From: an uncultured Myxococcales bacterium
GTDB lineage: Bacteria; Myxococcota_A; UBA9042; DTJE01
NCBI GenBank assembly: GCA_903936705.1
Contig: CAIZWN010000034.1
Coordinates: forward strand, 1 to 59,274
Direction of reading: 5' to 3'
DNA: 59,274 nt
The notes beneath the pieces are model-generated. The model was not told the origin of the DNA, did no database searches, and was given only the letters and a program-made list of their open reading frames with translations. Position numbers and translations under genes: made by a program. Each line of letters begins with the position of its first letter. Within the stretch, counting starts at the first letter, position 1. Below are positions 19,660 to 25,089 of the stretch, piece by piece.

Positions 19660-21273
19660 ATGGCAAATCCGTCGCGTATCGAAACCCAGGTCTTGATCAT
19701 CGGGGGCGGCGTTACAGGAACCGCGCTGGTCCGTGACCTCGCGCTGCGCGGGGTTGATTGCATCCTGGTCGAGAAGGATGACATCAACGCCGGCGCCTCC
19801 GGACGCAACCACGGCCTGCTTCACAGCGGCGCCAGGTACGTCGCCGGCGACCAGGAGGCAGCGGTCGAGTGCCGCGTCGAGGGCGAGATTCTCAAGCGTC
19901 TGGCCTCGCAAACCATCCAGGATACCGGCGGCTTTTTTGTTGCGGTCGAGGGTGACGATGAACGATACATCGCCGACTTTCCATCGCATTGCAAACGCTC
20001 CGGAATCCTTGTTCACCGGGTGGACGTTGCCGCTGCACGCGAGCTGGAGCCAGCGCTTTCGCCCCACACGATCGCGGTCTTCGAAGTTCCTGATGCCTCA
20101 ATCGATCCTTTCAGGCTGTCTCTGGAAAGCATGGCCCAGGCCAGGACCTTGGGCGCTCGCCTGATGAGACGCTCCCGCGTCATCGGCTTCCAGCGCGAAG
20201 GGCGGCGGATTCGTGCAGTGCAGGTGCGATCGATGCAGCTCGGGGAGGACGTGTGGATCGAGGCCGCCCAGGTGGTTAACGCGGCTGGGGCATGGGCCAG
20301 GGAAGTGGCGCTGCTGGCTGGGGCGTCGATCAACATGACGTACTCGAAGGGGACGCTGCTGGTCACTCACGGGCGCCTGGCCCAGCGGGTCGTGAACCGC
20401 CTGCGACCGCCCGGCAATGCGGATATCATGATGCCTGGGGGCACGGTCTCGATAGTCGGCACCACATCAACGCGCGTCGACTCACTGGACAACATTTACC
20501 CCACGACCGCCGAGGCCGACCTGATCGTAGATGAGGCCTCGCGGATGCTGCCGGCCCTTCAAACGATGCGATTCATTCGCGCATATTCGGGCGTGCGACC
20601 GCTGGTGGGATCAACCGGCGTTGCCGACGGCCGCACGGCATCCCGGGGTTTCGCCCTGTTCGACCACGATGTAGACGGCATCGACAACCTGGCAACCATC
20701 ACCGGTGGAAAGCTCACGACTTGCCGGCTGATGGCCGAGCGAGCTGCGGACCTGGTCTGCCGCCGCCTGGGAGTGGCTGCCCCTTGTCTTACCGCAATTA
20801 CGCAACTGCCGGTGGCCCCCGAATGCAAGTGGACCGAGCCCGGCCACGCACCGCGCGAATGGATGAGAACAGGGCAGGCCGAAACGCTTCTGTGCGAATG
20901 CGAGATGGTGTCTGCCAGTGCAGTCGATACGATCTACGCGGCGCTGGTAGCAGCCGGCGACACGCCTACGCTGACTGACATCGGCATGCGCAGCAGGGTC
21001 GGCAAGGGCGCGTGCCAGGGTGCGTTCTGCGCGGTACGCGCCGTGGCTCACCTATACCAGCGCGGCGATTTCCAGGCACAGAGGGGCCTTGACGAGATCA
21101 TCGATTTCTTTGCCGAACGCTGGAAGGGACAGCACTCGGTATTATGGGGCGAGCAACTGGCCCAGGCCGAGCTGATGGAGGCGCTGCATTGCGGCCTGTT
21201 CGGCGAGGAATTGCGCGGGGACGACATGCACGGCTTATGCCCGCCCGCCCTGAACGGCAAGGTGTCCCCATGA
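19660..21273 (+). CDS. glpA: Anaerobic glycerol-3-phosphate dehydrogenase, subunit A
   Basis: A 537-residue FAD-dependent catalytic subunit that oxidises glycerol-3-phosphate to dihydroxyacetone phosphate. The FAD Rossmann motif is GGGVTGTALVRDLALRG, followed by GASGRNHGLLHSGARY and the C-terminal FAD contact TITGGKLTTCRLMAE. A C-terminal BFD-type [2Fe-2S] domain carries C412-x-C414 and C452-x4-C457. The ATG at 19660 is preceded by GAGAG. The stop overlaps the start of glpB by four bases, typical of translational coupling. No glycerol kinase or facilitator gene lies nearby. Confidence 0.93.
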   Translation: MANPSRIETQVLIIGGGVTGTALVRDLALRGVDCILVEKDDINAGASGRNHGLLHSGARYVAGDQEAAVECRVEGEILKRLASQTIQDTGGFFVAVEGDDERYIADFPSHCKRSGILVHRVDVAAARELEPALSPHTIAVFEVPDASIDPFRLSLESMAQARTLGARLMRRSRVIGFQREGRRIRAVQVRSMQLGEDVWIEAAQVVNAAGAWAREVALLAGASINMTYSKGTLLVTHGRLAQRVVNRLRPPGNADIMMPGGTVSIVGTTSTRVDSLDNIYPTTAEADLIVDEASRMLPALQTMRFIRAYSGVRPLVGSTGVADGRTASRGFALFDHDVDGIDNLATITGGKLTTCRLMAERAADLVCRRLGVAAPCLTAITQLPVAPECKWTEPGHAPREWMRTGQAETLLCECEMVSASAVDTIYAALVAAGDTPTLTDIGMRSRVGKGACQGAFCAVRAVAHLYQRGDFQAQRGLDEIIDFFAERWKGQHSVLWGEQLAQAELMEALHCGLFGEELRGDDMHGLCPPALNGKVSP

Positions 21274-22580
21274 CGCACACGCGACAAGACACGTTCGACG
21301 TAGCAGTGATCGGCGCTGGAATGGCAGGCATGGCGGCAGCACTGTTTGCGGCGGAACGTGGTCTTTCGTGCATCCAGATCGGCAATGGCGGCGGGATCCT
21401 TTTCGCCAGCGGCCTGCTGGATCTGATGTCGATCCACCCATTGGCCGAGCGTCGCAAGTGGGGCTTTCCGTTTGATGCGCTGGCTGCCCTGGCCCTTGAA
21501 CAGCCACAGCACCCACTTGCAAGGATCGATGCCACGTCGGTCCGCACGGCGTTCAATGCCTTCGTGGCAGCGCTTGGCAAGGCAGGGCTTCCATACGCCC
21601 CGCTTGGCAAGGCAAACAGCGACGTCTTGACGTCGATCGGCACGATCAAGCCAACCTACGGTGTGCCGCGCTCGATGATTGCCGGGGTCAAGGCACTGGC
21701 CCAGCGCCCCCCGTGCCTGTTCGTGGATTTTCACGGACTGCGCGAGTTCAGCGCACGCCAGATTGTCTCGACGCTGGGCGACAGCTGGCCTGCCGCCCGC
21801 TTCCAGCGACTTCAATTTCCCGGGACCGAGGCCGTGCCCGAGTTGTATGCGGCCCACCTGGCCCGCGCCCTTGAGAACGTGGAAACTCGCGCCAGAACAA
21901 TCGACCTCGTAAAGCCGTTGCTTGGAGACGCACAAGCCATCGGATTCCCGGCGCTGCTGGGCCTGGAACACTCGGTTGAAGTCCACGCTGCATTCGAGGC
22001 TGGATTGGGCCTGCCGGTGTTCGAGATTCCGACGATGCCGACATCCGTACCCGGGTTGCGTCTGCTGATGGCGCTTGAGGCAGCAGTGGCGACCCGCGGG
22101 GTCAGCAGGCGCCACCATTCAACTGTCGATTCGATCGTTTTCGACGACGAGACTGCCACAATCGGTTTAATCGATAGTCCCGGCGGCGAACGCGTGGTCG
22201 CACGCACCGTAGTATTGGCCACTGGACGTTTCATGGGTCGCGGCCTTGTCGCCGATCGTGGACACGTCAGCGAAAGCATTATCGGGCTTCCGGTACACCA
22301 GCCGACTTCCCGAAATGAATGGCACCAGCGAGACTTCCTGGACCCAACGGGGCACGCCATCAATCGCGCCGGGCTGTTGATCGACGATTCGTGGCGGCCA
22401 CTCGACGCGGCTGGAAACCCGGCCTGGCCTCACCTCTTTGCCGTAGGCTCGATTCTGGCACACCAGGACTGGATGCGGTCGAAATGCGGCTCGGGGCTTG
22501 CTATCGCAACGGCGTGGGCGGCGGTTAGACAGATCACACGGCAGCTCTACGGAGACTGCGACAAGGCAGGAGAGCCATGA
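21270..22580 (+). CDS. glpB: Anaerobic glycerol-3-phosphate dehydrogenase, subunit B
   Basis: A 436-residue flavoprotein. The N-terminal dinucleotide-binding motif VAVIGAGMAGMAAALFAAERG is visible, as is the C-terminal LFAVGSILAHQDWM region found in GlpB. In the Escherichia complex GlpB works with GlpA and passes electrons to GlpC. The ATG at 21270 lies inside an ATGA overlap with glpA, and its own stop overlaps the next gene in the same way. The frame is open further 5', but that part is a shadow of glpA. Confidence 0.88.
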   Translation: MTHTRQDTFDVAVIGAGMAGMAAALFAAERGLSCIQIGNGGGILFASGLLDLMSIHPLAERRKWGFPFDALAALALEQPQHPLARIDATSVRTAFNAFVAALGKAGLPYAPLGKANSDVLTSIGTIKPTYGVPRSMIAGVKALAQRPPCLFVDFHGLREFSARQIVSTLGDSWPAARFQRLQFPGTEAVPELYAAHLARALENVETRARTIDLVKPLLGDAQAIGFPALLGLEHSVEVHAAFEAGLGLPVFEIPTMPTSVPGLRLLMALEAAVATRGVSRRHHSTVDSIVFDDETATIGLIDSPGGERVVARTVVLATGRFMGRGLVADRGHVSESIIGLPVHQPTSRNEWHQRDFLDPTGHAINRAGLLIDDSWRPLDAAGNPAWPHLFAVGSILAHQDWMRSKCGSGLAIATAWAAVRQITRQLYGDCDKAGEP

Positions 22581-24268
22581 CGCCAGCGCTCTTCCGGATA
22601 GCCCTGTACGGATCGCTAGCCATCTGCCTGCTGGGTTTGTTGTGGCGCGTTTCGACCTGGTTCCATCTTCGTGTCGGTCCGGATGCCTGCAATGTTACCG
22701 TGTTCCAGCGACTGATCACAGCGGTTCGTGGTGCAGTCTCGGTTACGTTTAGTCGCGGCCTGGTACACGTCCTGCGCGCTTTTTTCGTCGATGTGGTGTT
22801 TCAGAACCGGCTCTTCGCCCGCGAGAAATTGCGCTGGCTTGGACACCAGTTGATCCTGACTGGCTTCACCGGGTTGGTGTTGGTGCACGCGCTTGCCTCG
22901 GTGCTGGCGGGAAAGCTTTCTCCGGGCTACCAGCCGACACTGGATCCGTACATGTTCCTGCGTAACCTGGCTGGCGTCATGGTCTTTGTTGGAATCGCCA
23001 TGGTGTTCGCGGGAAGACGCCGGCAGCAGACCGGTTTTCCCCAATCGCGACGCCCGATTGACGCCATCTTCGTCGCTCTCCTGGGGACGATCCTGGTCTC
23101 GGGGTTCCTGCTGGAAGCCCACAAGATAGCCTCGCCGCGCGCCTTCTACCGCATGACGGACCAGTTCATCGGCACGACCGATCCCGAAGAGCTGAAGCCG
23201 TTGCGCGCCTTATGGGCCAGCGAGTTCGGTGTGGCATTCGACGACATGGGGGACGGGATCGAGCCGGCCGTCATTGCAGAGGGCCGCGAACTGCATGGCG
23301 ATGCCTGCGCATCCTGCCACGCCAAGCCGACATCCGCCTTCATCTCCTACACAGCAGCAAAGGTGCTGGCGCCATTGAGCGGGGCTCTGGACGAGGCACG
23401 CGCAGACACTTGGCTTCTGTACCTGCACCTCTTCGCCTGTTTCATCGGCCTGGCTCTGCTGCCGTTTTCGCGGTTCTTCCACGCTGTTGCCGACCCGGTC
23501 AGTTTGCTGGTCAACGGAGCGGCCCGTGAACGTGAGTTCTCGTCCGCCGGCCGTGCCTCGAGAAGGGCTCTTGCCCTTGATGCTTGCGTACACTGCGGCC
23601 TTTGCGACTCCAGTTGCTCGGTGGGACCGCTGGCACGTCACCTGGGCAACCCGGCACTGCTGCCATCGCACAAGATTGTCGCCACCGGCGCGCATGCCAG
23701 GCGGAGGCTGCTTTCCCACGGTATCGGGCCGGATGCCCTTCTGGTTTCGGAAGGCGCCTTCCAGTGCACGGACTGCGGACGCTGCACCACCAGGTGCCCG
23801 GTTGGCCTTGACCTGGCTGACCTTTGGGAAGCCGGACGCGGCGACCTTGCGATTGCCGGGCTTCCGGCGCCGTCCCAATGGGTACAGGCACGATCGGCCT
23901 TCGCATGGGCCGAGTCCCTGGACTCGCGATCGACGCCTGACGCCCCCTCGGCCCCGCTGGCGTCCGACCGCCGCACCTTCTCGCATTGCGTCCAGTGCCA
24001 GACATGCACGAACGTCTGCCCGGTCGTCGCCCACAGCATCGATACGGAACACGGCGTGGACCTTACACCCCAGAAGGTGATGAACCTGCTGCGACTGGGC
24101 ATGCTGGACCTGACTCTGGGCTCGCGAATGGTCTGGGACTGCGCCACGTGCTACCAGTGCCAGGAAAATTGTCCCGAGGGCGTCCGCGTGACCGACGTGA
24201 TGTGCGAATTACGCGGACTGGCCTACCACCGGCTGGGTTCAGTCCGGAATCCCGGGGGGCCGTCATGA
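22577..24268 (+). CDS. Cytochrome b / c-haem / ferredoxin fusion (HdrE-HdrC or QmoC-like), GlpC-replacing subunit
   Basis: The 563-residue protein has five hydrophobic helices (about 5-24, 90-111, 129-146, 163-181 and 278-300). His at H90, H104, H182, H284 and H302 are possible b-haem ligands, as in NarI/HdrE-type subunits. The loop between helices 4 and 5 contains C244-A-S-C247-H248, a c-type haem site. The C-terminal half has four C-x2-C-x2-C-x3-C clusters (C337-C347, C397-C407, C471-C481 and C522-C532). AGGAG precedes the ATG, which overlaps glpB by four bases. The likely role is moving electrons from GlpAB to the quinone pool or a c-haem partner. Confidence 0.8.
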   Translation: MTPALFRIALYGSLAICLLGLLWRVSTWFHLRVGPDACNVTVFQRLITAVRGAVSVTFSRGLVHVLRAFFVDVVFQNRLFAREKLRWLGHQLILTGFTGLVLVHALASVLAGKLSPGYQPTLDPYMFLRNLAGVMVFVGIAMVFAGRRRQQTGFPQSRRPIDAIFVALLGTILVSGFLLEAHKIASPRAFYRMTDQFIGTTDPEELKPLRALWASEFGVAFDDMGDGIEPAVIAEGRELHGDACASCHAKPTSAFISYTAAKVLAPLSGALDEARADTWLLYLHLFACFIGLALLPFSRFFHAVADPVSLLVNGAAREREFSSAGRASRRALALDACVHCGLCDSSCSVGPLARHLGNPALLPSHKIVATGAHARRRLLSHGIGPDALLVSEGAFQCTDCGRCTTRCPVGLDLADLWEAGRGDLAIAGLPAPSQWVQARSAFAWAESLDSRSTPDAPSAPLASDRRTFSHCVQCQTCTNVCPVVAHSIDTEHGVDLTPQKVMNLLRLGMLDLTLGSRMVWDCATCYQCQENCPEGVRVTDVMCELRGLAYHRLGSVRNPGGPS

Positions 24269-25089
24269 AATTTGCGCTGTTCGTCGGCTGCAAGATCCCG
24301 TCCCGACTGCCGGCGTACGAGATTTCTACGCGCGCAGTACTGGGCCGCCTGGGAGTATCGCTGGTCGATCTGGATTTCACGTGCTGCGGCTATCCTGCCA
24401 GGAACATCAGCCGGGACGCCTTTGTCCTTGCAGCAGCCAGGAACCTTGCACTGGCCGAGCGGGCAGGCCTGGACGTGCTGACACCCTGTAAATGCTGCTT
24501 CGGAAACCTTCGTCATGCCATAAGGTTCCTTGGCGAGGACGAGGCGCTGCGTTCGCGTGTTGAGAAGGCGCTGGCAACCGAGGGCCTGGCCTGGTCGGGG
24601 CACACCGAGGTCCATCACCTGTTGCCGCTGCTGGCTCGCAAGGTCGGCATCGACAAGGTCACCGCATCAGTACGCCTCCCACAGACCGGCATGCGCGTGG
24701 CGGCCCAGTACGGTTGCCACGCGCTGCGTCCTAGTAACGTGACCCGCTTCGATAACCCGATGGCGCCAACGATCTTCGAGAAATTGATTCGTGCAACCGG
24801 CGCTGTCGCTATCAACTGGCCCCGTCGCCTGGATTGTTGCGGCGACCCTCTCCACGAGGCCAACGGCCCGCTGTCGGAAAGAATAACGCTGGCCAAGCTG
24901 GCCGACGCACGCCAGTCGGGGGCAACAACAATCTGCACGGCCTGTCCGCATTGCCATCTACGCATGGACGCCGTCCTCGCCGGCAGCACCAGCGCGTCCG
25001 CCGAAACCGGGACGGAAATCAAGACCCTGCTCTATCCACAACTCCTGGGACTGGCGATGGGCCTGGCTCCAGAGGCACTTGGGATGTAG
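24265..25089 (+). CDS. CCG-domain (HdrB/GlpC C-terminal-like) Fe-S protein
   Basis: The 274-residue protein has two cysteine-rich CCG modules. The first has C9, CCGYP at C40-C41, and CKCC at C75-C78. The second has GCH, LDCCGDP and CTACPHC. These modules bind non-cubane or linked Fe-S clusters in heterodisulfide reductase HdrB and form the C-terminal half of GlpC. No membrane segment is present. The ATG at 24265 overlaps the upstream stop (ATGA), so all four genes 19660-25089 are coupled. With the cytochrome/ferredoxin fusion it supplies the parts of GlpC as two chains. Confidence 0.82.
   Translation: MKFALFVGCKIPSRLPAYEISTRAVLGRLGVSLVDLDFTCCGYPARNISRDAFVLAAARNLALAERAGLDVLTPCKCCFGNLRHAIRFLGEDEALRSRVEKALATEGLAWSGHTEVHHLLPLLARKVGIDKVTASVRLPQTGMRVAAQYGCHALRPSNVTRFDNPMAPTIFEKLIRATGAVAINWPRRLDCCGDPLHEANGPLSERITLAKLADARQSGATTICTACPHCHLRMDAVLAGSTSASAETGTEIKTLLYPQLLGLAMGLAPEALGM

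Follow-up and report, generated by a model that had tools for sequence, protein, structure and literature searches.

How do electrons from glycerol-3-phosphate (G3P) reach the membrane when glpA and glpB are not accompanied by glpC? The question is raised by contig CAIZWN010000034.1 of an uncultured Myxococcales bacterium (GenBank assembly GCA_903936705.1; GTDB lineage Bacteria; Myxococcota_A; UBA9042; DTJE01), positions 1 to 59,274 of which were analysed and are called the window below. At 19660-25089 (+) the open reading frame (ORF) listing and its translations place four consecutive genes, for GlpA, GlpB, a 563-aa membrane protein and an HdrB-like protein (Table 1). The quartet is real, conserved and specific, and it probably encodes a four-subunit membrane-bound G3P dehydrogenase in which GlpC has been replaced by a portable two-gene electron-exit module, with quinone as the main exit and a c-type haem as a second port.

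The four-gene operon

Both GlpA and GlpB exceed the curated cut-offs of NCBIfam, which assigns them to the GlpABC enzyme. GlpA scores 556.1 bits with TIGR03377 (cut-off 552.8), is 41% identical to its E. coli counterpart across 520 columns and has the C-terminal cysteines of a BFD-like [2Fe-2S] domain (C412xC414...C452x4C457). GlpB scores 537.9 bits with NF003725 (cut-off 345) and 198.9 bits with TIGR03378 (cut-off 174.15), and its identity to E. coli GlpB is 27%. The genes are joined by three overlaps, as the original prediction, made from the DNA letters alone, had stated; each 4-base joint reads ATGA because the downstream ORF opens with ATG and the upstream ORF stops there.

The last gene had been taken for that of a two-CCG protein, and this holds. 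Two CCG domains were found, both with complete cysteine sets (C9/CC40-41/C75xxC78 and C151/CC191-192/C224xxC227), and the HdrB model TIGR03288 matches the full length (residues 2-273, 194.9 bits, E 1.7e-57). The relatives in the Protein Data Bank (PDB) are methanogen HdrB chains (E 8.6e-49 to 1.2e-37). As the score is below the methanogen equivalog cut-off of 345.15, the protein is considered HdrB-like and not a coenzyme B-coenzyme M (CoB-CoM) HdrB.

Table 1. Features of the glpA-glpB-cytochrome-hdrB operon in the window
Feature	Position	Strand	Remarks
glpA, FAD (flavin adenine dinucleotide) catalytic subunit of glycerol-3-phosphate dehydrogenase	19660..21273	+	537 aa; TIGR03377
ATGA overlap glpA/glpB	21270..21273	+	ORF translation
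glpB, GlpB-like flavoprotein subunit	21270..22580	+	436 aa; NF003725, TIGR03378
ATGA overlap glpB/cytochrome gene	22577..22580	+	ORF translation
Membrane cytochrome b/c-ferredoxin fusion gene	22577..24268	+	563 aa; five-helix part resembling EtfD and NarI, CxxCH loop (predicted periplasmic), pair of dicluster ferredoxin domains
His90, putative b-haem ligand, helix 2	22844..22846	+	Invariant, 41/41
His104, putative b-haem ligand, helix 2	22886..22888	+	Invariant, 41/41
Met193, periplasmic loop, candidate distal c-haem ligand	23153..23155	+	Invariant
CASCH (244-248), motif for attachment of a c-type haem, in the loop from helix 4 to helix 5 (predicted periplasmic)	23306..23320	+	CxxCH in 41/41
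His284, aligned with NarI His187 (b-haem ligand)	23426..23428	+	Invariant
His302, aligned with NarI His205 (b-haem ligand)	23480..23482	+	Invariant
First dicluster ferredoxin domain, Cys 337-407, two [4Fe-4S] motifs, EtfD/SdhB-like	23585..23797	+	Fer4_8 334-411; inside EtfD match 1-434
Second dicluster ferredoxin domain, Cys 471-532, two [4Fe-4S] motifs, HdrC-like	23987..24172	+	5odc HdrC match
ATGA overlap cytochrome gene/hdrB-like gene	24265..24268	+	ORF translation
hdrB-like gene, two CCG domains	24265..25089	+	274 aa; TIGR03288

The cytochrome b/c-ferredoxin protein

The third protein has the predicted composition of five helices, one CxxCH and four [4Fe-4S] motifs: hydrophobic helices lie at about 4-22, 88-106, 126-144, 164-182 and 279-297 and are also present in the structure model, and four CxxCxxCxxxC motifs fall in two Fer4_8 domains (Pfam). 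A scan of 84,980 species genomes for homologues yielded 47 loci, most of them with full-length homologues of this protein, and 41 sequences, with identity down to about 32%, were aligned. None of the 41 sequences departs from the CxxCH, from His90, His104, His284, His302 and Met193, or from any of the sixteen cluster cysteines; as the CxxCH persists across such divergence, it is not a chance occurrence.

All four invariant histidines are within or next to membrane helices 2 and 5. By BLASTP, residues 260-311 align without gaps to NarI 163-214, so that His284 and His302 fall on NarI His187 and His205, two of the four b-haem ligands of NarI. With the Pfam model PF02665 the window protein scores just below the cut-off (22.0 versus 22.9 bits), and 40 of the 41 homologues are matched at E 0.01 or better. 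When the membrane part was aligned by profile with E. coli NarI, no useful match emerged (3.6% probability), although BLASTP had aligned the last helix. The five helices, the fold and the paired membrane histidines place the protein among di-haem cytochromes b of the NarI/EtfD type.

Lysine and arginine together amount to 14.7, 31.2 and 11.2 per 100 residues in the presumed cytoplasmic loops versus 3.5 and 7.7 in the presumed periplasmic ones; positive charge is found in loops 1 and 3 and past helix 5, acidic character in loops 2 and 4. A cytoplasmic location is therefore predicted for the ferredoxins and the HdrB-like subunit, and a periplasmic one for the CxxCH. The original prediction had allowed that the motif might prove to lie in the cytoplasm, over a membrane part devoid of b-haem histidine pairs, and this is not what the topology indicates. 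The conserved CxxCH, its predicted periplasmic position and the presence of cytochrome c maturation genes in the genome agree with a c-type cytochrome.

The AlphaFold2 model built on the 41-row alignment (mean predicted local distance difference test, pLDDT, 86; predicted template modelling score, pTM, 0.82) has as its best PDB match mycobacterial EtfD (9ojn, Z 22.6, 336 residues of 1-434), followed by NarI chains (Z 9.0-9.8). The C-terminal ferredoxin (about 455-556) resembles HdrC chains both in structure (Z 9.0-10.1) and in sequence (5odc HdrC, E 6.2e-11). The protein therefore consists of a cytochrome and dicluster of the EtfD kind, extended by a second dicluster resembling HdrC; the CCG part, which in EtfD belongs to the same chain, forms the HdrB-like subunit of the window. 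The cytochrome had been called HdrE/QmoC-like, and this description applies in part: the QmoC equivalog NF038018 gives 70.9 bits against a cut-off of 300, its best stretch being the C-terminal ferredoxin only (467-554), whereas the cytochrome and first ferredoxin are closest to EtfD and NarI.

Replacement of GlpC

In the known GlpABC enzyme, electrons pass through GlpC to menaquinone (PMC11962113). The operon of E. coli resembles that of the window in having GlpA and GlpB with a dicluster ferredoxin and two CCG domains encoded downstream. E. coli GlpC, however, is one chain of 396 aa with two CxxCxxCxxxC motifs, two CCG domains and no CxxCH, in agreement with the predicted single haem-free protein, whereas in the window these functions are divided between two proteins, the ferredoxin is doubled, and a five-helix cytochrome and a c-haem site are extra. 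The third protein is far below the cut-offs of the GlpC models (TIGR03379, 38.8 versus 279.9 bits; NF008369, 51.9 versus 278). No GlpC above the curated cut-off was found in the genome of the window or in the 14 quartet genome entries searched (among which G056 and G058 duplicate the operons of G009 and G003), and two well-known control genomes were positive. The predicted replacement of GlpC is thus upheld.

Distribution and origin of the membrane module

The order glpA-glpB-cytochrome-hdrB, in one orientation, was found in 15 genomes from four groups: six genomes of the window's GTDB family, its own included (in G007 the contig ends before the fourth gene), and metagenome-assembled genomes (MAGs) of betaproteobacteria (five), Spirochaetes (three) and Desulfosarcinaceae (one). 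The expected recurrence of the four-gene order was therefore observed in other phyla, and the homologues of the third gene do not always lie apart from glpAB. The distribution is narrow, with the quartet in 6/379 genomes of the phylum, all of one family, and in 2/299 genomes of the family of a Rhodocyclaceae MAG. GlpB itself is rare in the phylum (11/379), and the five GlpB proteins outside quartets are 31-35% identical. Some of these distant homologues (L100-L104) adjoin a short frame with a dicluster ferredoxin motif, which suggests a short dicluster protein and not the cytochrome module, perhaps another arrangement lacking GlpC.

In the unrooted tree, where the Desulfosarcinaceae row is long, a single branch (support 99/97) separates the glp-linked cytochromes from the others. 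The window cytochrome groups with betaproteobacterial ones at a support that is not firm (84/89). Its identity is 68% with the nearest of these and 59-60% with cytochromes of its own genus, and both findings together point to horizontal transfer.

The remaining 26 homologues do not adjoin glpAB. An HdrA gene lies within a few kb in 19 of these loci, mostly directly past the hdrB-like gene, and some of the HdrA-linked loci also contain MvhD- or MetF-like genes. The pair apparently belongs there to an uncharacterised membrane Hdr complex, possibly tied in some loci to methylene-tetrahydrofolate reduction. Examples of the cytochrome/HdrB pair with HdrA are L050:5998-12335, L043:618-7738, L056:254-6010 and L072:5102-13703, along with other Desulfobacterota and Spirochaetes loci. 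The occurrence of the c-haem motif on both sides of the tree makes it a trait of the module that was not added for G3P oxidation; the original prediction had regarded the site as an addition, and it is in fact fixed in the whole family, including the HdrA-linked majority. One glp-linked clade and the same duo beside HdrA elsewhere together argue for a portable membrane module that replaced GlpC.

Comparison with known systems

The association of GlpAB with a membrane Hdr-type protein has a precedent: HdrF1 and HdrF2 are encoded beside glpAB in Desulfobacterium autotrophicum HRM2, and electron transfer from GlpAB was proposed for them in 2009 (PMC2702500). There too a membrane protein with HdrC- and HdrB-like parts adjoins glpAB; in the passages of that report devoted to it, however, HdrF is one fused chain, described with neither a c-haem nor a second ferredoxin and associated with GlpAB from gene order only. 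In the window the transmembrane/HdrC and HdrB parts are on two ORFs with an ATGA overlap, unlike the single chain of HdrF. EtfD, the membrane oxidoreductase of beta-oxidation (electron-transferring flavoprotein:menaquinone oxidoreductase; PMC8593149), shares the NarI-like membrane domain and the 4Fe-4S dicluster and differs in its role and in carrying the CCG domains on the same chain. The genome of the window also has an EtfD/HdrF-like frame of 748 aa (L114:1301-3544, -; G000:C2) with membrane helices, a dicluster, two CCG domains and no CxxCH, which invites comparison with the c-haem form. NarI of nitrate reductase A has in common with the window protein the membrane fold (Z 9.8) and the two helix-5 haem histidines; its helix-2 histidines are 10 residues apart versus 14 in the window protein, and it lacks ferredoxins and c-haem.

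The HdrA-linked pairs of Desulfobacterota are direct homologues of proteins 3 and 4, with the same architecture and the same CxxCH, but form a separate clade and have HdrA (in some cases with MvhD or MetF nearby) as the partner instead of GlpAB. They are possibly of the same kind as the complex of HdrA with haem c and a CCG protein in HotSeep-1 (PMC10553843). The principle of GlpAB joined to a membrane Hdr protein is thus not wholly new; its split, double-ferredoxin, c-haem form was not found described in the open-licence literature.

Genomic context

In one genome of the 15 (G002), nrfH-nrfA is located immediately upstream of the quartet on the same strand (L029:14269-16109, -), and in a Burkholderiaceae MAG a NrfA-like cytochrome with seven CxxCH motifs is encoded divergently upstream of it, suggestive of a connection with nitrite respiration in these organisms. 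The contig of the G002 quartet opens with a frame of 2377 codons and 52 CxxCH motifs (L029:2-7132, +).

Glycerol kinase GlpK is present in all nine genomes tested. An apparent in-frame TAG in glpK of the window's genome was dismissed, being likely the gene's own stop at the end of the match (open frame L116:559-2043, with a new frame after it). A GlpD-like gene (C44) is present in addition, a parallel to the aerobic/anaerobic pair known from E. coli. No FNR-type box was found upstream of glpA in the window. The FNR-type sequence TTGATNNNNATCAA, with at most one mismatch, occurs upstream in three relatives (L036, L038 and L073) and was set aside as too weak; FNR-like palindromes TTGACGTGCATCAA and TTGATTTTTGTCAA are located upstream of glpA in relatives at about 2538 in L036, 2982 in L038 and 2850 in L073.

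Proposed electron route and direction of the reaction

The assembly of the subunits, their cofactors, the order of the chain, the direction of flow and the acceptor may be proposed by analogy with GlpABC, HdrBC, EtfD and NarI. G3P would be oxidised at the FAD of GlpA. By way of the [2Fe-2S] cluster of that subunit and the GlpB flavin, electrons would reach the two CCG clusters of the HdrB-like protein, itself docked on the HdrC-like ferredoxin tail of the cytochrome, and would continue through the four [4Fe-4S] clusters to two membrane b-haems. Reduction of (mena)quinone would be the main exit, and the periplasmic c-haem could act as a second port exchanging electrons with periplasmic cytochromes. 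Several results weigh against this scheme. The window contains no multihaem cytochrome gene; the 95-residue CxxCH loop modelled alone (pLDDT 82, in a haem-free model that may be wrong) resembles no PDB entry; and, with regard to direction, no strong match to GpsA (PF07479, PF01210) was found in four of the six quartet genomes of the window's family (G000, G001, G003 and G009), which are drafts, 87-96% complete.

The c-haem could instead be the main exit of a G3P:cytochrome c oxidoreductase, an enzyme supplying periplasmic or extracellular acceptors without recourse to the quinone pool. The CxxCH, invariant in its predicted periplasmic loop, and the nrfHA and NrfA-like genes beside two quartets are in line with such an enzyme; NrfH, however, is a member of a quinol oxidase family, so nrfHA also fits the quinone route. 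As the di-haem core retains its four histidines, like that of quinone-reactive NarI, and no gene for a dedicated mono-haem partner is found repeatedly next to the quartet, we consider this route unlikely. A dehydrogenase with two exits, to quinone and to a covalent periplasmic haem c, in which GlpC was swapped for the membrane module of an uncharacterised HdrA-linked respiratory complex, is a possibility that we put forward tentatively.

The missing GpsA matches would also suit an enzyme running mainly in reverse in some hosts devoid of GpsA, where quinol or periplasmic cytochromes would donate the electrons for turning dihydroxyacetone phosphate into the G3P needed by phospholipid synthesis. 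However, G002 and G007 have a strong PF01210 match together with the quartet, and GpsA and the quartet are therefore not mutually exclusive; the comparison covered quartet genomes, and these are drafts. GlpK can supply G3P, and established potentials put the reaction with quinol uphill. We consider reversal very improbable. We give equally little credence to mere co-transcription of GlpAB with a cytochrome/HdrB pair that would function as a heterodisulfide or thiol oxidoreductase like methanogen HdrDE. The complete cluster cysteine sets of the HdrB-like subunit and the HdrA neighbors of the same pair elsewhere would be expected of such an enzyme, but GlpC is missing in every quartet genome searched, so that GlpAB would be left without a membrane partner; moreover, no HdrA is found beside the two quartet loci checked (L040, L064), and all three gene joints overlap in the window.

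Implications

If a four-subunit G3P dehydrogenase with a two-gene exit module is indeed encoded here, the electron-exit subunit of a central catabolic dehydrogenase would be exchangeable as a unit, and bacteria would mix and match their respiratory parts. One membrane module, made of the cytochrome b/c-double ferredoxin protein and HdrB, is encoded beside HdrA in sulfate reducers and beside G3P dehydrogenase in other phyla. Should both exits be in use, G3P oxidation could feed periplasmic cytochrome chains directly. The glp-linked version, with its known substrate, would offer an accessible handle on the role of the c-haem in this uncharacterised module.

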